Virus record (IMG/VR): IMGVR_UViG_3300021962_000378
Span: 1 to 32,668 of that record
Strand: one strand, 5' to 3'
DNA length: 32,668 nucleotides
Origin: a virus
Below, piece by piece: positions 1 through 32,668 of this stretch. The position numbers were made by a program, and so were the translations under genes. The notes under the pieces were generated by a model. The model was not told where the DNA came from, did no database searches, and saw only the letters and a list, made by a program, of their open reading frames with translations. How positions within the stretch are numbered: the first letter of the stretch is position 1; each line of letters starts with the position of its first letter.

Positions 1-138
1 CCTTTTCTTCGATCTTCCTCTGTTATTTCGCACCGATTAAAATCCCCATGCATACCCGTACAGTCGCCATGCATACCCGTACAGTCGCCACGCAAGTTCG
101 AACAGTCACCACGCAAACCCGAACAGTCCCCCCATAAC
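1..138. repeat. Terminal direct repeat, left copy (circular closure)
   Basis: Bases 1-126 are identical to 32531-32656, and 127-138 match 32657-32668 with three mismatches. The overlap lies inside the heptapeptide-repeat gene, and joining the ends restores one open frame. This fits a circular or circularly permuted genome whose contig was cut inside a repeat, as expected for headful packaging. A physical terminal repeat is less likely because it would interrupt a coding frame. Confidence 0.85.
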
Positions 139-854
139 AGCGAACAGTCCCCCCCCAACTTCGAACAGACTCCGTTCAGCTCCGAACAGTCACCCCTCAA
201 ATCCGAACAGTTCCCCCTCAAATACGTACAGTCACCGCTCAAACCTGAACAGTCGCCACTCAAGTTCGAACAGTTCCCAGCCAGTCCAGTACAGTTTCCC
301 AGAAGATTCGAACAGTCTCCCGTCAACCCCGAACAGTTGCCATGAATCTCCGTACAGTAACCACTCAAATCCGAACAGTGCCCACGCAGCCACGTACAGT
401 CCCCCATCAGCCGCGAACAGCGCCCACGCAAACCCGTACAGTTCCCACGCAGCAACGAACAGTCCCCATTAAGATCCGTACAGTCGCCGCTAATATACGA
501 ACAGTCACCGCTCAGCATCGAACAGTTGCCATGCAATCTCGAACAGTTTCCCCGAAGATTCGAACAGTCCCCCGTCAACATCGAACAGTCCCCACTCAAA
601 TACGTACAGTCACCGCTCAGCCTCGAACAGTCACCACGCAGCCACGTACATCGCCCACGCAACTCCGAACAGTCACCACGCAGCCTCGAACAGTCACCAC
701 TCAAATCCGAACAGTCCCCCATTAATCCCGTACAGTCCCCACGCAGCCACGAACAGTCCCCACGCATGTAATCGTTTTTTCCTTCAACTCTGCAGCTTAA
801 AATGTAATGGAAAAGAAGCTTTTCCCTTTTATTTATCATCAAGTTCTTAATCAT
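1..854 (-). CDS. Heptapeptide-repeat (GDC[ST]xLx) protein, large paralog, N-terminal and central part
   Basis: The frame opens with ATG at 852-854 after a GAGGA ribosome site and runs without a stop to base 1. It continues in frame through the circular junction to a TGA at 32485, giving about 299 residues. The N-terminus (MIKNLMINKREK...) is followed from about residue 30 by roughly 34 tandem 7-residue repeats of consensus G-D-C-[ST]-x-L-x, encoded by degenerate 21-bp repeats over about 42-767. The protein ends in a cap, GDFNRCEITEEDRRKGVNV..., that is shared with the two neighbouring paralogs. Every repeat contributes one Asp, one Cys and one Leu, which suggests a regular solenoid with Cys and Leu ladders and an acidic face. 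The start codon overlaps the stop of the preceding paralog (ATGA), so translation is probably coupled. Function unknown; a DNA-mimic or structural role is only a guess. A complementary + frame (342-725) is also open but is a mirror artefact of the repeat. Confidence 0.8.
   Translation of the reverse strand, partial: MIKNLMINKREKLLFHYILSCRVEGKNDYMRGDCSWLRGDCTGLMGDCSDLSGDCSRLRGDCSELRGRCTWLRGDCSRLSGDCTYLSGDCSMLTGDCSNLRGNCSRLHGNCSMLSGDCSYISGDCTDLNGDCSLLRGNCTGLRGRCSRLMGDCTWLRGHCSDLSGYCTEIHGNCSGLTGDCSNLLGNCTGLAGNCSNLSGDCSGLSGDCTYLRGNCSDLRGDCSELNGVCSKLGGDCSLLWGDCSGLRGDCSNLRGDCTGMHGDCTGMHGDFNRCEITEEDRRK
42..767 (-). repeat. Degenerate 21-bp tandem repeat array (about 34 units)
   Basis: On the + strand the unit reads roughly as acagtcnccacncaanncg, with the invariant core aacagtc/tacagtc. 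It encodes the 7-residue repeat of the large paralog on the - strand. Most variation falls at codon positions that change the residues between Cys and Leu and the one after Leu. One unit near 651-659 lacks the Asp codon but keeps the register. Unit number may be wrong in a short-read assembly. Confidence 0.85.
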
Positions 855-3651: not shown

Positions 3652-3915
3652 TTAATACCACACCATTCTTTCAAATTTAACCAATATCCAGTCGCGTCTA
3701 AACCAAGCGACCAAATCCTCAGTCGTTGGGCATGTTGAGCCGGATACCTGCACGCCATCGTCGTTGAATTTGGGATATGCCTTATGATCACAATCCCCTA
3801 GATGGGACGCATACCCTGCGATATAATAATCCACAAACTGTAGGCCACGATGTCTGTACACTCGTCTCCCGGTCCAAACTGGCTCCTCCTCTGTTTGGAT
3901 CATGTAAGGTTTCAT
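3652..3915 (-). CDS. Small accessory protein, GYAxHLG/PKxN family, copy B (87 aa)
   Basis: Contains IAGYASHLGDCDHKAYPKFN, then VQVSG and EDLVAWFRR, matching copies A and C. ATG at 3915 follows AGGAG in the shared leader. The C-terminus is Trp/Tyr-rich (FERMVWY). The conserved His, Pro-Lys and Ala-Trp positions mark a compact domain of about 55 residues. Function unknown. Confidence 0.7.
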   Translation of the reverse strand: MKPYMIQTEEEPVWTGRRVYRHRGLQFVDYYIAGYASHLGDCDHKAYPKFNDDGVQVSGSTCPTTEDLVAWFRRDWILVKFERMVWY

Positions 3916-4419: not shown

Positions 4420-4704
4420 TTATTTTTCCTCAATTTCTTCAACTTTAATTGATTGAACATCGTGCCCAAACCAAGCCACCGCATCCTCAAACGTTGCAAC
4501 CCTTGCCCCGGATATTTGTTCGTCGTCGTCGTTGAATTTTGGATATTCTGCATGGTCATAATCGCCGCGATGATCCTCATATCCCGCTAATTCAATGTCT
4601 TTATCGGCGCATTCTTCTGACGCATAAATGACGTACTCAGCCTCTGTGGCCGTCCAGGTTCTAACAATCCCGCCCCAGTGGCTTTTCGTTGTGATTTTGT
4701 ACAT
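4420..4704 (-). CDS. Small accessory protein, GYAxHLG/PKxN family, copy C (94 aa)
   Basis: Contains LAGYEDHRGDYDHAEYPKFN, then EQISG and EDAVAWFGHD, aligned with copies A and B. The C-terminus ends acidic (VEEIEEK), as in copy A (VEEIR). ATG at 4704 follows AGGAG in the shared leader. It is the first gene after the promoter at 4757-4784. Function unknown. Confidence 0.7.
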   Translation of the reverse strand: MYKITTKSHWGGIVRTWTATEAEYVIYASEECADKDIELAGYEDHRGDYDHAEYPKFNDDDEQISGARVATFEDAVAWFGHDVQSIKVEEIEEK

Positions 4705-5971: not shown

Positions 5972-6394
5972 ATGCCGAAAATTGAAAAACCCGCTACAGA
6001 AAAGCACGACGGAAGACAGGCCAACGGTGGAGCTCGAGAAGGGGCGGGAAGGCCTGCTTTTGAGCCAACAGAGGCCGAACGTAAACAAGTCGAGGTGTTG
6101 TCTGGGCACGGGTTGCCGATTGACCAGATTGGGGCGCTAGTGCGTGAGGGTATCAGCGTCGACACGTTGCGCGCTCATTTCCAAGCCGAACTGGTTGCGG
6201 GTAAAGCGCGGGCTAACTCGCAAATTGGGCAAACTCTTTTTGAGAAAGCAATTAGCGGCGATACAACCGCTATGATTTGGTGGTCCAAAACACAAATGAG
6301 GTGGGCCGAAACGCAGAAACACGAACTCACCGGGGCAGATGGCGCGCCGCTTGAATTTACGAAAATCGAGCGGGTGATTGTGAAGAATGAGTAG
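5972..6394 (+). CDS. terS: Terminase small subunit (140 aa)
   Basis: Recognises packaging DNA and delivers it to the large subunit. The N-terminus is Gly/Arg-rich (GGAREGAGRPAF), followed by a helix-turn-helix-like segment (IDQIGALVREGISVDTLRAHF, residues about 50-71) and an oligomerisation region ending TTAMIWWSKTQMRWAE, typical of small terminases. ATG at 5972 follows AAGGAG by 6 bases; a TTG at 5927 is not needed. It overlaps terL by 8 bases. First gene of the rightward arm; the pac site is likely in or near it. Confidence 0.85.
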   Translation: MPKIEKPATEKHDGRQANGGAREGAGRPAFEPTEAERKQVEVLSGHGLPIDQIGALVREGISVDTLRAHFQAELVAGKARANSQIGQTLFEKAISGDTTAMIWWSKTQMRWAETQKHELTGADGAPLEFTKIERVIVKNE

Positions 6395-7616
6395 CAAAAC
6401 GCTGCAACTCGAGACGCCTGCCTGGGCTGAACCTCTATTGTCGCCCAGCCGATACAAAGGCGCTTGGGGAGGGCGCGGGTCTGGAAAATCGCACTTCTTC
6501 GCGGAACTAATGATTGAGCAACACATTTTGAACCCTAGGCGGCGCAGTGTGTGTGTGCGTGAGATTCAAAAATCCCTCAACCAGTCTGTAAAACGGCTAT
6601 TAGAGACCAAAATTCAGGAGATGAACGCTGGCGCATATTTTGAGGTTCAAGAGGCCGTTATCAAATCCAAACGCGGCGATGGGGCGATCATATTCCAAGG
6701 GATGCAAAACCACACGGCGGACTCAATCAAATCCCTCGAGGGCTATGATTGCGCGTGGGTTGAGGAAGCTCAATCCCTCAGCCAAACGAGTCTGGATCTG
6801 CTACGTCCGACTATCCGCAACCCTGGAAGCGAATTGTGGTTCACGTGGAATCCCCGCCAAGCAAATGACCCGGTGGATTTTCTGCTGCGTGGGCCAACTC
6901 CGCCAAAAGACGCAACGGTGCTCAAAGTCAATTTCACAGATAACCCTTGGTTTCCGCAAGTCCTGCGTGACGAAATGAAGTACGACAAGCGGCGTGACCC
7001 AGACAAGTATCAGCACGTTTGGCAAGGTTCTTACCTGACAAACAGCAGCGCTAGGGTGTTCCGGAACTGGAAGATTGACGAGTTCGAGGCCCCTCCAGAC
7101 GCAATCCATCGGCTTGGTGCTGATTGGGGATTCGCAATTGATCCCACAACCCTAGTACGTTGCCATATTGTTGGGCGCACCCTCTACATCGACTATGAGG
7201 CCTACATGGTTGGTTGCGAGATAGTCAACACCCCCGAATTATTCATGCAGGTCCCAGACGCCGAAAAGTGGCCAATCGTTGCAGATTCAGCCCGCCCCGA
7301 AACTATCAGTCATATGCGTAAGAACGGATTTCCAAAGATAATGACGGCGGTAAAAGGCCCCCGGTCCGTAGAGGAAGGGGTTGAATTCATCAAGGGCTAT
7401 GACATTATAGTTCACCCAAGGTGCACACACACAATTGACGAACTAAGCCTGTATAGCTACAAGCAAGACCCACTCACGGGCAACATCCTGCCTATATTAG
7501 CAGGCAAGAAAAACCACATGATAGACGCCCTTCGCTATGCTTGTGAGGGTGCCCGGCGTTCAATCATTACCCGCGCCGCTGGCGTTGTCCCATTGCCAAC
7601 CGTAAAGCGTTGGTGA
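6387..7616 (+). CDS. terL: Terminase large subunit (409 aa), PBSX-like
   Basis: ATP-driven packaging motor and nuclease. Walker A is GGRGSGKS (28-35), Walker B is DCAWVEEA (121-128) and the coupling motif is WFTWNP (151-156). The nuclease domain shows the three acidic positions of the RNase H-like fold: D246 (GADWGF), D300 (VADSARPE) and D380 (HMIDALRY). Length and motif spacing fit the PBSX-type family, usually linked with headful packaging, which agrees with the circular assembly. Complete and intact. Confidence 0.95.
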   Translation: MSSKTLQLETPAWAEPLLSPSRYKGAWGGRGSGKSHFFAELMIEQHILNPRRRSVCVREIQKSLNQSVKRLLETKIQEMNAGAYFEVQEAVIKSKRGDGAIIFQGMQNHTADSIKSLEGYDCAWVEEAQSLSQTSLDLLRPTIRNPGSELWFTWNPRQANDPVDFLLRGPTPPKDATVLKVNFTDNPWFPQVLRDEMKYDKRRDPDKYQHVWQGSYLTNSSARVFRNWKIDEFEAPPDAIHRLGADWGFAIDPTTLVRCHIVGRTLYIDYEAYMVGCEIVNTPELFMQVPDAEKWPIVADSARPETISHMRKNGFPKIMTAVKGPRSVEEGVEFIKGYDIIVHPRCTHTIDELSLYSYKQDPLTGNILPILAGKKNHMIDALRYACEGARRSIITRAAGVVPLPTVKRW

Positions 7617-7648: not shown

Positions 7649-9727
7649 ATGGCCAGACTCTCTAACGATCAACGACTATCTAACCTACACGCCGATGCAT
7701 TGGCCCAATTCGATGACGTGCAAAGCGCGCTCAGAGACGAGCGGCTACAGTGCCTACAAGACCGGCGCTTCTACTCACTATGTGGTAGCCAATGGGAAGG
7801 CCCGTTGTCGGACCAGTACGAAAACAAACCCAAGTTCGAAGTGAACAAAATAATGTTGGCCGTGATCCGAATCGTGAACGAGTACAGAAACAACCGGATA
7901 ACGGTGGACTTCGTGTCCAAGGACGGCACGGACAATGACAAGTTGGCGGATGTTTGCGACGGGCTGTACAGAGCTGATGAACAAGCGTCTGTAGCTAATG
8001 AGGCGTATGATAACGCATTCGAGGAAGCCGTTGGGGGTGGCATTGGCGCGTGGCGTCTACGTGCGATATATGAGGACGACGAGGACCCAGAGGACGACCG
8101 CCAACGTGTTCGAATAGAGCCTATCTTTGATGCTGATAGCTCAGTGTTTTTCGACCTAGGAGCCAAGAGGCAGGACAAATCAGACGCCAAATTCTGCTTC
8201 GTCGTCACGTCAATGACAACCCAGGCATACAAAGACACGTGGGGCGATGACCCGTCTAGCTGGCCAAAAACAATCCACCAATATGAGTTTGATTGGGCCA
8301 CCCCCGATGTGGTTTACGTGGCAGAGTATTACAAGGTTGAGGAAAAGAGCGAGACGGTCCGAATATTCGAGACACTCACAGGCGAAGAAGAGCGCTACAC
8401 GCAAGCGGATTTTGCGGCCGATGACACATTGGAAGCAACATTGCAGGCAATCGGAACCGTTGAAGTGCGACAAAAGCGCGTTAAGCGTAGAAAAGTCCGC
8501 AAGTATGTTCTGTCCGGGGGCCGGGTACTAGAAGATTCGGGCTATATCGCTGGCAAGTGTATCCCTATCGTAGTTGTCTACGGGAAGCGTTGGTTCGTGG
8601 ATAACATCGAACGCTGTATGGGCGCTGTTAGACTAGCCAAAGATGCTCAACGCCTCAAGAATATGCAGCTATCCAAGTTGGGAGAGATAAGCGCTCTATC
8701 GTCCGTGGAAAAGCCAATACTCACCCCCGAGCAGGTAGCCGGGCACCAAGTCATGTGGGCCGAGGACAATATCAAAGACTACCCGTACTTGCTAATCAAT
8801 CCAATAACAGACCAGAACGGAAACCAGGCTGTAAGCGGCCCCGTGGCATATACGCGTAGCGCCGCTATCCCACCTGCAATGGCTGCACTTCTACAGATAA
8901 CCGAGCAGGACATGCAGGACATCCTAGGCAACCCTCAAGGGGCTGACAAGATGGTGTCGGGAGTGTCTGGCAAGGCGGTGGAGATGATACAGACGCGTGT
9001 GGACATGCAAACGTTTATTTACATGAGCAACTTTGCAAAAGGGATGAAGCGTTGCGGGGAAATCTGGCTATCGATGGCTAAAGATGTCTATATTGAAGAA
9101 AAGCGCAAACTAAAGACAGTCTCTCCCACCGGCGATGCTGGGGTGGTTGAACTAATGAGGCCCACGATTGACCAAGAGACTGGGGCAATTGTCATGGAAA
9201 ACGATCTATCAAGGGCCACATTCGACGTCGTCTCAGACGTGGGCCCATCTAGCAGCAGCAAGCGAGCAGCCACGGTCCGCGCATTAACGGGGATGCTACA
9301 GATCACACAGGACCCAGAGACGGCGCAGGTGATAACCGCAATGGCGATGATGAACATGGAAGGCGAAGGGATTGGAGATGCAAATGCTTATTTCCGCAAG
9401 AAACTATTAAGAATGGGGGTTGTTAAACCAACCGAGAAAGAAGCCCAGGAACTTATGGCGGAGATGCAGGGAACCACTCAAGATCCAAATTCTATGTATT
9501 TGCAAGCAGCAGCCGAGGAAGCCACCGCAAAAGCCGCCAAAGCCAGAGCCGACACCGTGGAGACTATTGCGAGTTCAGAACTTAAACGGGCTCAGACAAT
9601 GAAGACGCTGTCAGAAGTAGATATGGATTCGCAGGACCACGCGGTTCGGATGATGGAGTCAATAATTCCACAAGAGCAAATGGAGCAGCCCCAATTCCAA
9701 CCCCAAGTCCAACCCCTTCAGGGGTAA
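7649..9727 (+). CDS. P22-like portal protein (692 aa)
   Basis: Dodecameric ring at the packaging vertex. Size is close to P22 gp1 (about 725 aa). Recognisable parts are the N-terminal RRFYSLCGSQWEG/NKIMLAVIRIVNEYRNNR region, an internal GGIGAWRLRAIYED segment, and the C-terminal helical barrel region rich in Ala, Glu and Gln. The C-terminus ends in a Gln/Pro repeat (QPQFQPQVQPLQG). A clear AAGGAG precedes ATG at 7649. It lies between terL and the scaffold as in P22-like genomes. Confidence 0.92.
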   Translation: MARLSNDQRLSNLHADALAQFDDVQSALRDERLQCLQDRRFYSLCGSQWEGPLSDQYENKPKFEVNKIMLAVIRIVNEYRNNRITVDFVSKDGTDNDKLADVCDGLYRADEQASVANEAYDNAFEEAVGGGIGAWRLRAIYEDDEDPEDDRQRVRIEPIFDADSSVFFDLGAKRQDKSDAKFCFVVTSMTTQAYKDTWGDDPSSWPKTIHQYEFDWATPDVVYVAEYYKVEEKSETVRIFETLTGEEERYTQADFAADDTLEATLQAIGTVEVRQKRVKRRKVRKYVLSGGRVLEDSGYIAGKCIPIVVVYGKRWFVDNIERCMGAVRLAKDAQRLKNMQLSKLGEISALSSVEKPILTPEQVAGHQVMWAEDNIKDYPYLLINPITDQNGNQAVSGPVAYTRSAAIPPAMAALLQITEQDMQDILGNPQGADKMVSGVSGKAVEMIQTRVDMQTFIYMSNFAKGMKRCGEIWLSMAKDVYIEEKRKLKTVSPTGDAGVVELMRPTIDQETGAIVMENDLSRATFDVVSDVGPSSSSKRAATVRALTGMLQITQDPETAQVITAMAMMNMEGEGIGDANAYFRKKLLRMGVVKPTEKEAQELMAEMQGTTQDPNSMYLQAAAEEATAKAAKARADTVETIASSELKRAQTMKTLSEVDMDSQDHAVRMMESIIPQEQMEQPQFQPQVQPLQG

Positions 9728-9871
9728 CCCTTATTCATGTTTTGAACTGTCAGTGAAAGGTTGACAGTTCACTCCATTAAAGGCAGGTGTTGCTAAAAGT
9801 AAAAAAGCAGGTAAGAATAGGCTGACGGATTCCACCCGCCGTTAAACTGGGTGAGTTGATAGGAAACGCAC
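9728..9871. other. Portal-scaffold intergenic region with hairpin
   Basis: A 9-bp inverted repeat GAACTGTCA/TGACAGTTC (9744-9752 and 9762-9770, 9-nt loop) has no T run, so it is not a classical terminator. A weaker CACCC...GGGTG pair lies near 9837-9853. These may be RNA control or processing sites ahead of the scaffold and coat genes. No clear promoter. Confidence 0.5.
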
Positions 9872-28344: not shown

Positions 28345-28725
28345 TTATTTTCTCTTTATTTTCCGCGTAATTTTATGATGATGCATTACTATATCCCCAA
28401 GCGGGCAGTCACACGCATAACCCATGTCATAATCAAACACGAATCCATCCCCTTTGCACATCCCCAAATCACACACCCACCGCTTACTGCTTATTCCGAT
28501 GGTCTTCATCCATGCGTTAATATCGCACACGGCAGGAAACTTAAAATTGGTATTTAGCCAATTGTCGATGAAATCTTTCACGTGACTTTTATCAAGTGAC
28601 TCTGACTTGCACATCTTTTCCACGATTGCGGCGATCAGAGCGTCCTTTGGGGGCATCCCTGGGAGCTTATTACCCAATAGCCGCAACTCATTCGAGACGT
28701 ACTCGCGAAGCTCGTGGTCATACAT
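28345..28725 (-). CDS. Hypothetical replication-linked protein with Cys cluster (126 aa)
   Basis: The N-terminal half is helical (MYDHELREYVSNELRLLG...) with FPAVCDINAW near residue 63. The C-terminal half has CDLGMCKGDGFVFDYDMGYACDC, four Cys arranged like a zinc ribbon. Start overlaps the initiator gene by 8 bases, so it is co-translated and probably acts in replication. Could be a helicase-loader partner; unproven. Confidence 0.55.
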   Translation of the reverse strand: MYDHELREYVSNELRLLGNKLPGMPPKDALIAAIVEKMCKSESLDKSHVKDFIDNWLNTNFKFPAVCDINAWMKTIGISSKRWVCDLGMCKGDGFVFDYDMGYACDCPLGDIVMHHHKITRKIKRK

Positions 28726-29716
28726 GCGTTATGTCTCCAGTTATAATTCGTACTATATCCGGCATTTTATCACCCCACACCCATTTCCCCCCATTGCGTT
28801 TTGACCAAGCGGTTTTCATAAACAAAGCAGCATCAGCCGATGGGGGCGGATCACTATCCCCCTGTTTATTTGAGGTCTCATTGATCGCCAGGATCATCGC
28901 ATTGACAGCGCTTACATCCTCGAAGTCCTCCCAGTTGTTAAAAAATGTAGCCCCGTTTTTTGGGAATCGCCCAGTGGTGGCCAGGTACCTCAAATAGTTC
29001 TCAACGGCCACAGCACACCGTCGAAGATCGTCAATCGTTTTGACTGAAGCCAAGAAGTGCTTCATAGCGGCCTTCTTGCCATCCTTCACAGGGTAAGATA
29101 GCCATAGTTTGTTAAATTCAGGCTCAAACTGATTTTTGGGGCCACTCACGGCCAACCCTTTGCTATTCATTGGCCTGTCATCGCTAACACACGACAATCC
29201 ATCAGCATCTGCGACATCCTTTAAATTACGGGCCGCAGCTGTTGAAAGTCCCCAATCTTTCTTCATTGGAAAACCTGAATCAATCTGCTCTTTTTTGTAT
29301 AATTCATCATGTTCTATTGTCTTGTCTTCTCTTCTCTTCTCTTCTCTTCTCTTCTCTGTCCTAGGGACACACTCAACCACGTCCCCAGGGACGTCCCCAG
29401 GGACATTTTCTCTTTTTGAGGGAGAAACGCCTCTTTGAAAGGCTTTTTTTTCCCGGCTTTTACCCCGTTGTAGCCCCAATTTTCTGACGTCTTCCAGCAC
29501 TTTTTCGACAATTAATGGGAGATTTACGCCGGTTTTTTGGAGATTCTTGTCCAGTTTCTCCGCTGTTTTAGGGCGCATGATTGTCGCCATTTCTTCTGGT
29601 GTCGGCGCTCTTTCCTTCAAAGCGGCGAGGGCTTGTATTTTTACAAGCCGCCCAATCTCTTCATCGCTCAAAGCGCTGTTTAGCACGTGCCCCACTTTTA
29701 TTTTGAACCAATCCAT
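28718..29716 (-). CDS. Phage replication initiator / replisome organiser-like (332 aa)
   Basis: The N-terminus MDWFKIKVGHVLNSALSDEE with IGRLVKIQALAALKERAPTP is the winged-helix-like start of many phage replication proteins. A variable linker follows (including EKRREEKRREDK). The C-terminus FNKLWLSYPVKDGKKAAMKHF with AVENYLRYLA and FFNNWEDFED is typical of primosomal phage initiators. The linker DNA holds palindromic repeats and a pyrimidine tract, as in lambda O where the origin lies inside the gene. Confidence 0.75.
   Translation of the reverse strand: MDWFKIKVGHVLNSALSDEEIGRLVKIQALAALKERAPTPEEMATIMRPKTAEKLDKNLQKTGVNLPLIVEKVLEDVRKLGLQRGKSREKKAFQRGVSPSKRENVPGDVPGDVVECVPRTEKRREEKRREDKTIEHDELYKKEQIDSGFPMKKDWGLSTAAARNLKDVADADGLSCVSDDRPMNSKGLAVSGPKNQFEPEFNKLWLSYPVKDGKKAAMKHFLASVKTIDDLRRCAVAVENYLRYLATTGRFPKNGATFFNNWEDFEDVSAVNAMILAINETSNKQGDSDPPPSADAALFMKTAWSKRNGGKWVWGDKMPDIVRIITGDITHV
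29325..29404. repeat. Candidate replication origin: TCTTC tract and palindromic iterons
   Basis: 6.6 copies of TCTTC (29325-29357) abut three related palindromes: GTCCTAGGGAC (29358-29368), then GTCCCCAGGGAC twice in direct tandem (29381-29392 and 29393-29404). They lie in the linker region of the initiator gene. Palindromic iterons beside a homopurine/homopyrimidine tract fit an origin; inferred, not proven. Confidence 0.5.
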
Positions 29717-31791: not shown

Positions 31792-32144
31792 CTGCTTTTG
31801 CCTAAAGCTTTTTTAATCCGGCAATGAATGTTTTGCCTTGAAGTTCCTATTTTTCTGGCAATGCCAGAGTCCGACATCCCCGATTCTTTTAAAGAAACGA
31901 TATATGCGTCGGTGGTGCCCGTCTTCTTTGTTGGGGACCTGATAAATTCAATTTTATTTCGCCCGCAAATACGGTGAATTACGGCCCAATCAACGTTTAA
32001 TCTCCGCGCCGTTTGGGTCAATGGGAGCCCTTCGCTGATATCGTGTTTTATTTCGATGATAAGCGACGCTTCCTCTCTCTGTTTATTTAATTTTTTAACT
32101 TCCTTTAAAATTTCCAGTTTAATTTTCTCCTCTGATTTTTTCAT
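31788..32144 (-). CDS. Double helix-turn-helix DNA-binding protein (118 aa)
   Basis: Residues 1-35 are a Lys/Glu-rich helix. Two HTH units follow: LPLTQTARRLNVDWAVIHRI (about 40-59) and SGMSDSGIARKIGTSRQNIH (about 88-107). Probably a transcription regulator; the adjoining promoters are natural targets. GAGGA precedes the ATG, which overlaps the stop of the upstream repeat protein (ATGA). Confidence 0.75.
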   Translation of the reverse strand: MKKSEEKIKLEILKEVKKLNKQREEASLIIEIKHDISEGLPLTQTARRLNVDWAVIHRICGRNKIEFIRSPTKKTGTTDAYIVSLKESGMSDSGIARKIGTSRQNIHCRIKKALGKSS

Positions 32145-32488
32145 TTTTCTTCCTCACTTTTAAAAATTAAATCGTAAATGTGCACGCCTTTTTTTCTTTC
32201 ATCGTCAGTTATTTCACACAAATCAAAATCCCCCAATAACCCGGTACATTTCCCCCTCAAACCCGTACAGTCACCACTCAAACCCGAACAGTCGCCGTAC
32301 AAATCCGAACAGTCCCCCCTCAACCCCGTACAATCCCCCTCCAACTCCGTACAGTCCCCCTCCAACTTTGTACAGTCCCCCCATAACCCCGAACAGTCCC
32401 CCCTCATGGAGTTTCTGCTCCATGGCATTTTTTGCCCGAAATCAAAATGATAAAGATCCCTAATACTCTCTTTCAATTTCCTAATCAT
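32141..32488 (-). CDS. Heptapeptide-repeat protein, medium paralog (about 9 repeats)
   Basis: A 115-residue protein. N-terminus MIRKLKESIRDLYHFDFGQK, then repeats GDCSGLW, GDCTKLE, GDCTELE, GDCTGLR, GDCSDLY, GDCSGLS, GDCTGLR, GKCTGLL, and the cap GDFDLCEITDDERKKGVHI. GGAGG lies 7 bases before the ATG. ATGA overlaps on both sides join it to the large paralog and to the HTH gene. Function unknown. Confidence 0.75.
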   Translation of the reverse strand: MIRKLKESIRDLYHFDFGQKMPWSRNSMRGDCSGLWGDCTKLEGDCTELEGDCTGLRGDCSDLYGDCSGLSGDCTGLRGKCTGLLGDFDLCEITDDERKKGVHIYDLIFKSEEEK

Positions 32489-32668
32489 TTCTCTTCCTCC
32501 ATTTTAAAAATTAAATCTTCAACATTGACGCCTTTTCTTCGATCTTCCTCTGTTATTTCGCACCGATTAAAATCCCCATGCATACCCGTACAGTCGCCAT
32601 GCATACCCGTACAGTCGCCACGCAAGTTCGAACAGTCACCACGCAAACCCGAACAGACTCACCATAAC
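32485..32668 (-). CDS. Heptapeptide-repeat protein, large paralog, C-terminal part (continues at base 1)
   Basis: This is the C-terminal end of the gene that starts at 854, split by the window edge. It contains the last repeats, the cap GDFNRCEITEEDRRKGVNV and a tail ending in MEEEK, then TGA at 32485-32487. The TGA overlaps the ATG of the next paralog (ATGA). The last 12 bases (32657-32668) differ from 127-138 at three positions. Read in this frame they would replace an Asp codon by Val and introduce a TGA at 32659-32661, so they are probably an assembly-end artefact or a population variant. Confidence 0.75.
32531..32668. repeat. Terminal direct repeat, right copy
   Basis: This is the second copy of the terminal redundancy. 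The first 126 bases match the window start exactly; the last 12 match at 9 positions. The repeat array around it makes misassembly of the last bases easy. Confidence 0.85.

Follow-up and report, generated by a model that had tools for sequence, protein, structure and literature searches.

Pentapeptide-repeat proteins (PF00805/PF13599) are built from a five-residue unit, A-[DN]-L-x-x, which winds into a right-handed quadrilateral beta-helix; MfpA and Qnr are DNA mimics of this type, and pentapeptide-repeat rods bind gyrase. In phage L, a pentapeptide-repeat gene of the early left operon (orf232) has one repeat, or 15 bp, fewer than that of ST64T (PMC8022706), and the proteins that bind gyrase include beta-solenoid DNA mimics (PMC10886550). 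The heptad-repeat family described here resembles the pentapeptide-repeat proteins in its short tandem repeat, in its solenoid fold (predicted in the heptad case), in the location of its genes in phage early regions and, if L and ST64T are taken as the example, in the gain and loss of whole repeats between near-identical phages, but it also differs from them. The period is seven residues and not five, the A-[DN]-L-x-x motif is lacking, and neither pentapeptide profile of Pfam gives a match for the three proteins of our locus. The caps are different as well, positions 5 and 7 of the unit are hypervariable, the proteins are only moderately acidic, and predicted strands that recur every 7 residues do not fit the four 5-residue faces of the pentapeptide helix.

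The locus lies in a virus record of 32,668 bases (IMGVR_UViG_3300021962_000378), which was analyzed as a whole and is called the window hereafter. All heptad genes are on its minus strand, in the order P1, P2, P3, and are followed by a gene for a small protein of 118 aa; each gene overlaps the next through an ATGA, at 854..851, 32488..32485, and 32144..32141. In each of P1, P2, and P3, units of the form G-[DN]-C-[ST]-x-L-x are flanked by an N-cap and a CEIT-type C-cap (CEITDDERKKGV or CEITEEDRRKGV). P1 (851..1156, minus strand, 101 aa) starts with an ATG at 1156 preceded by GAGGAG, and its six clean units and degenerate last one stand between the N-cap MIRKLKEIREELYHFD and the C-cap CEITDDERKKGV. 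P3 (32141..32488, minus strand, 115 aa) has eight clean units and a degenerate one. Tandem Repeats Finder independently recovers the 21-bp arrays that code for the repeats of P1 (977..1048), P2 (46..766, 34.3 copies), and P3 (32238..32406, 8.0 copies). A preliminary description of this locus, made from the letters of the window, had reported three coupled paralogs with about 7, 34, and 9 repeats; the genes, their positions, and the overlap at all three junctions are borne out, and the clean units number 6, 34, and 8 with degenerate last units, 34 being an assembly value. It had also placed an N-terminal helix in two of the three proteins: the segment is indeed common to P1 and P3, but no helix is predicted there in the alignment-based model discussed below. 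In P1, P2, and P3, the codons of the C-terminal EEEK tail contain the GAGGAAG ribosome-binding site for the gene that follows, and the tail is thus partly a coupling element.

P2, of about 299 aa, reads from 854 through the contig ends to 32485. Its first 284 aa, with 34 contiguous units, are encoded at 3..854 (minus strand), and the remaining 15 C-terminal residues, with the cap CEITEEDRRKGVNVEDLIFKMEEEK, lie at the other contig end (32485..32668, minus strand), where a second copy of the last repeats overlaps positions 2-138 of the window start. The contig ends share 137 nt with three mismatches, all of them within the last 12 nt. P2 is therefore a single gene only if the contig is circular, and because the shared ends fall inside the repeat array, the figure of 34 units depends on the assembly. 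Short-read assemblies often break within repeat arrays. A contig end cuts 17 of 59 heptad loci (L081, L083, L088, L090, L101, and L132 among them), so that these arrays, too, seem to break short-read assemblies and their true lengths are underestimated.

The gene coupled to P3 (31788..32144, minus strand), previously described as a double-HTH gene, does have two HTH-like places, at residues 31-66 and 77-113, although the matches are weak, being sub-threshold in Pfam with a best PHROG E-value of 5e-5. Downstream of the operon, on the same strand, lie genes for a RecE/YqaJ-like phage exonuclease (30403..30990; phrog_5715 exonuclease, E=2e-57) and a replication initiation protein (28718..29716; phrog_270, E=2e-9). 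Elsewhere in the window, three small early genes on the minus strand (1919-2296, 3652-3915, and 4420-4704) resemble paralogs by eye, sharing the motif HLG...H.A[FY]PK[FY]N....[QV][IV]SG followed by [DE]D.VAW[FY]; the 125-aa product of the first carries the peptide TIKSSD..[IV]QIYEGS repeated, through a 48-bp tandem duplication at 2137-2232 (2 copies, 93%). The terminase (6387-7616) is 84-90% identical to that of at least 80 IMG/VR contigs and 68% identical to that of Xanthomonas phage PBR31. The early region of the window, by contrast, is almost unique, so that a mosaic early region is joined here to a conserved structural module.

A search of IMG/VR with the cap and last units gave 66 loci, a second search gave 67, and a cap-based search, which sets no requirement for Cys within the repeats, gave 14; a hand count over the three comes to about 80 distinct contigs of the heptad family. 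Most full-length members begin with the N-cap MKK.LTR...LYH..DGK.IEGPN..M and end in G[DN][LF]D.CEI[ST]DEER..G[VI].I.[DE]LI or in ...IPASARPC[DN]LSDWV.E, and a third set ends in a different domain. Such a domain, LW[IV]W[KR]YPI[IV]KI.GK..I..VGC[LM]RF.KKP.YE.V, closes the proteins of L130 (8698-9540), L119 (8959-9522), L059, and L071, and the heptad genes of L119 and L130 lie near lysis and tail genes, which speaks against the early, host-directed reading given below. Several other phages likewise carry heptad paralogs in tandem, and those of L081 and L083 have the same -4 overlap. Repeat number, for which a count in related phages had been proposed, varies between them.

Beyond these contigs, one true member, MW202691 (metagenomic), was found among 50,697 phage records. 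The 72,556 plasmids gave no close match, only low-identity repeat matches. In 84,980 prokaryote genomes, scanned with the Cys form only, the one hit was a chance match in a Polyangiaceae sequence (L079) that lacks caps. Matches to tail-fibre and minor-head genes of Bacillus, Escherichia, and Mycobacterium phages covered repeat stretches only, ended before the cap, and were rejected. Several profile matches were likewise judged uninformative: the score for the Pneumocystis major surface glycoprotein model (Pfam MSG, PF02349) passes the cut-off, but its best stretches lie in repetitive sequence and cover no more than about 33-37 of the 76 profile positions, and phrog_19577, NCBIfam SlaB and TigB, and the PDB coils reflect repeat composition. 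In the literature, we found no description of a heptapeptide-repeat family. These proteins are an unnamed, almost purely viral family, without an adequate model in Pfam, PHROGs, or NCBIfam; it is nearly missing from catalogued phages and is found almost only in uncultured ones.

Fast-evolving, in-frame amino-acid tandem repeats are also known from Borg elements, where they are selected as protein, mostly disordered, often extracellular, and independently arisen (PMC9879509). Heptad arrays share with them the fast in-frame evolution, the residence on extrachromosomal elements, and selection as protein, but differ in that a single unit, probably ordered and flanked by conserved caps, keeps reappearing in unrelated phages. 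Selection was measured as pN relative to mean pS at each unit position over 57 arrays and 939 units, with bootstrap 95% intervals. The ratio is 0.12 at Gly1, 0.13 at Cys3, and 0.35 at Leu6, about 0.7 at the D/N and S/T positions, 1.21 (1.08-1.54) at position 5, and 1.58 (1.34-1.88) at position 7. The Gly, Cys, and Leu of the unit are under purifying selection, and it is the protein itself that is selected. At positions 5 and 7, variation exceeds that of synonymous sites, which supports diversifying selection there, with the caveat that codon bias may lower pS and so account for part of the excess over 1.

A neutral or selfish 21-bp minisatellite with an incidental open frame, or an element acting at the DNA level such as an origin or recombination site, might also produce arrays of this kind, given that the other frames of the 21-bp repeat stay open too and that unit number is unstable. 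We regard this as very improbable, because the Gly and Cys codons change almost only synonymously and because caps, ribosome-binding sites, and start codons are conserved, the caps persisting across arrays of 36-71% GC. The same silent codon variation, together with the recurrence of unit and C-cap in some 80 other phage contigs, means that the repeat and cap first noticed in the window are real and not chance; their conservation in related phages had been named beforehand as one of two tests, and both are conserved.

The chemistry of the core is less fixed than the window alone would suggest. Position 3 is Cys in 97.6% of units of Cys-type arrays, and the preliminary description had predicted a Cys ladder from the regular spacing of Cys, Leu, and Asp. 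A ladder with metal, redox, or cross-linking function, or a modified, RiPP-like peptide, would accord with that figure and with the weak match to NCBIfam TigB. However, in the arrays selected by their caps, a Val at position 3 is paired with Ile or Leu at position 6, or a Leu at position 3 with Val or Ile, and only one array has Cys with Leu; whole arrays of relatives thus carry Val or Leu throughout, and a metal, redox, or disulphide ladder is not a property of the family. The TigB match is also far under its cut-off (28.6 vs 70), and the neighbour families that were listed include no RiPP enzyme, so that we give the Cys-ladder and RiPP readings very little credence. Across the family, the pairs at positions 3 and 6 are C/L, V/I, V/L, L/V, and L/I, nearly uniform within each array, and position 3 is a core position that accepts alternatives of similar combined size.

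Two folds compete for such a unit. Positions 3 and 6 fit the a and d positions of a hydrophobic heptad, and the 3-4 spacing of C/V/L and L/I/V is that of Lpp, T4 fibritin, P22 gp26, and VP2 of SH1-like viruses. The heptapeptide repeats of halophilic virus VP2 have been read as coiled coil (PMC4958249). The heptad proteins could accordingly be coiled-coil or fibre-like structural proteins whose length variation adjusts a fibre. AF2 without an alignment predicts long helices for P2, and Val-type relatives match coiled-coil models: one passes the cut-off of LPP (53.9 bits, cut-off 29.1), and there are matches to fibritin and gp26 in the PDB. With 22 aligned sequences, however, AF2 places L-x-G-D strands in P3 at 56-59, 63-66, 70-73, 77-80, and 84-87 (pLDDT about 80-88), that is, a beta-solenoid, with a helical C-cap and a pTM of only 0.58. 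In a helical register, moreover, the Gly would occupy the exposed f position, and yet its pN/pS of 0.12 equals the constraint on the core; variability peaks at e and c, the reverse of what a coiled coil shows. Most units contain two Gly, one of them invariant; Gly makes up 23-28% of residues, compared with 3-11% where the solved coils match, and helix propensity is on average worse than in those stretches (0.61-0.65 vs 0.44-0.55 kcal/mol). The neighbours, finally, are mostly early genes and not tail genes. A coiled coil therefore appears improbable to us, and, on account of the invariant Gly, the distribution of variable positions, the Gly content, and the poor helix propensity, a solenoid is preferred.

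The seven-residue beta-roll of the grass ice-recrystallisation protein (PF21300, PDB 3ULT) is a described counterpart on the solenoid side. Two relatives pass the cut-off of 30 of its LbR_Ice_bind model (L087, 33.5; L234, 30.2); P2 stays below it at 23.4 and matches 3ULT with E=0.075, and P1 and P3 give no match. The caps are unrelated, and ice binding in the plant apoplast is no model for a cytosolic phage protein. A Foldseek search with the beta model returned no neighbour in the PDB or BFVD. When periodicity was used to tell two units per coil from three, the excess at lag 2 was only weak (z 3.5 for x7 and 2.4 for x5); lag 3 showed none, and lag 5 showed an unexplained one. Overall, the alignment-based strands, the relatives at the LbR_Ice_bind cut-off, and the invariant Gly agree with the earlier suggestion of a solenoid, which we take to be the probable, model-based fold of the heptad proteins.

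The number of units is not stable even over short evolutionary distances. The L097 and L099 contigs share about 99% identity over 18 kb, and their arrays differ by 126 bp, exactly six units; phages that are nearly identical can thus differ in repeat number by whole units. The gene itself also moves between unrelated phages by horizontal transfer, since the L009/L094 contig has the heptad gene alone in common with the window (89% nucleotide identity, 378 aligned bases). As a control, 80 relatives of the terminase (TerL), 84-90% identical, were considered, 22 of which extend more than 5.5 kb upstream of TerL; within the sequence stretch examined, none of the 80 has a heptad gene. The heptad cluster is a horizontally exchanged accessory cassette.

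In other phages, the neighbours of heptad genes include YqaJ/RecE exonucleases, Erf, Sak4, Mu Gam-like proteins, helicases, and polymerases, and the genes often lie in early recombination or replication regions. Pentapeptide-repeat genes occur in 5 of 67 heptad loci and in 0 of 80 TerL-relative loci (a weak association, Fisher p=0.018, the control being a single phage clade), and in L080 and L085 one directly follows the heptad gene. These neighbours and the one-repeat difference of phage L lend some support to the analogy with pentapeptide-repeat proteins that was drawn at first sight of the locus. PADLOC found no consistent defence system among the heptad-gene neighbours, and no known anti-defence gene is among them.

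From the early-region context, the pentapeptide neighbours, the phage L gene, and the gyrase-binding beta-solenoid mimics, we infer that the heptad proteins may be early-made cytosolic rods directed at the host, a reading to which we assign a probability of roughly 0.45; by this analogy, an anti-host role is plausible. P1, P2, and P3 would be small cytosolic proteins folded as a beta-roll with one strand and turn per seven residues and two units per coil. The turn would be made by the Gly and the core filled by residues 3 and 6, as Cys/Leu, Val/Ile, or Leu/Val pairs that differ between arrays; residues 2, 4, 5, and 7 would face outward, and the N- and C-caps would close the ends of the rod. 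Because 21-bp units can be gained or lost whole without a break in the frame, rod length and surface residues could be reset quickly. Produced early in infection, the rod would bind a host factor, perhaps a defence or DNA-metabolism protein, and serve as its inhibitor or decoy, in a manner comparable to pentapeptide-repeat rods on gyrase. A constant core and constant end caps, combined with quick turnover of length and surface residues, are what would be expected of host-directed tools.

A stricter form of the same analogy would have the rod copy the charge and shape of B-DNA and occupy gyrase, a restriction enzyme, or another DNA-binding host protein. The solenoid prediction, the pentapeptide genes nearby in some contigs, and the recombination and replication context are consistent with this, as are the share of units with Asp or Asn at position 2 (90%) and the pI below 5.5 in 43 of 64 members. 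The preliminary description had predicted an acidic face, but a strongly acidic one finds little support: position 7, which in the predicted strand lies on the same side as the Asp, is most often Arg (40%); P1 (101 aa) and P3 (115 aa) carry net charges of only -5.9 and -9.0; and 9 of 64 members are basic, with a pI above 8. Asn freely replaces Asp (26%), and the surface positions diversify without keeping a charge pattern. Strict DNA mimicry is thus possible but poorly supported, and we consider it improbable. An unlikely alternative of another kind is a modular recognition scaffold, in which each unit would contribute outward residues 5 and 7 under diversifying selection, D/N2 and S/T4 would act as switches, and slippage or recombination would reset the number of units, yielding rods for changing host targets. 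Its logic would be comparable to that of other repeat-based recognition proteins, but with a minimal unit of 21 bp.

Whatever the target, the heptad family offers a clean system with a fixed core, a hypervariable surface, adjustable length, and conserved caps, and with tandem paralogs of different length within one operon. If the early-made rods do bind host factors, they would be a second kind of short-repeat rod in phages beside the pentapeptide proteins, and possibly a scaffold for designed binders.

Other short-repeat genes stand near some heptad genes. In L091, a gene at 9120-9746, which follows three heptad paralogs through the same LGARM overlap, joins a DUF7666-like N-terminal part (sub-threshold) to TGGxGSxL repeats. 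Dense, CxxC-type Cys-repeat genes without a Pfam family are found in L087 (7422-8285, CQDCQGCQDC) and L129 (1494-2093, CMNCGYCMNC), and in L130 (10565-11395, with the same gene in L140) a gene near the heptad gene encodes six-residue CRFGEG repeats with a sub-threshold match to a hexapeptide-transferase profile.
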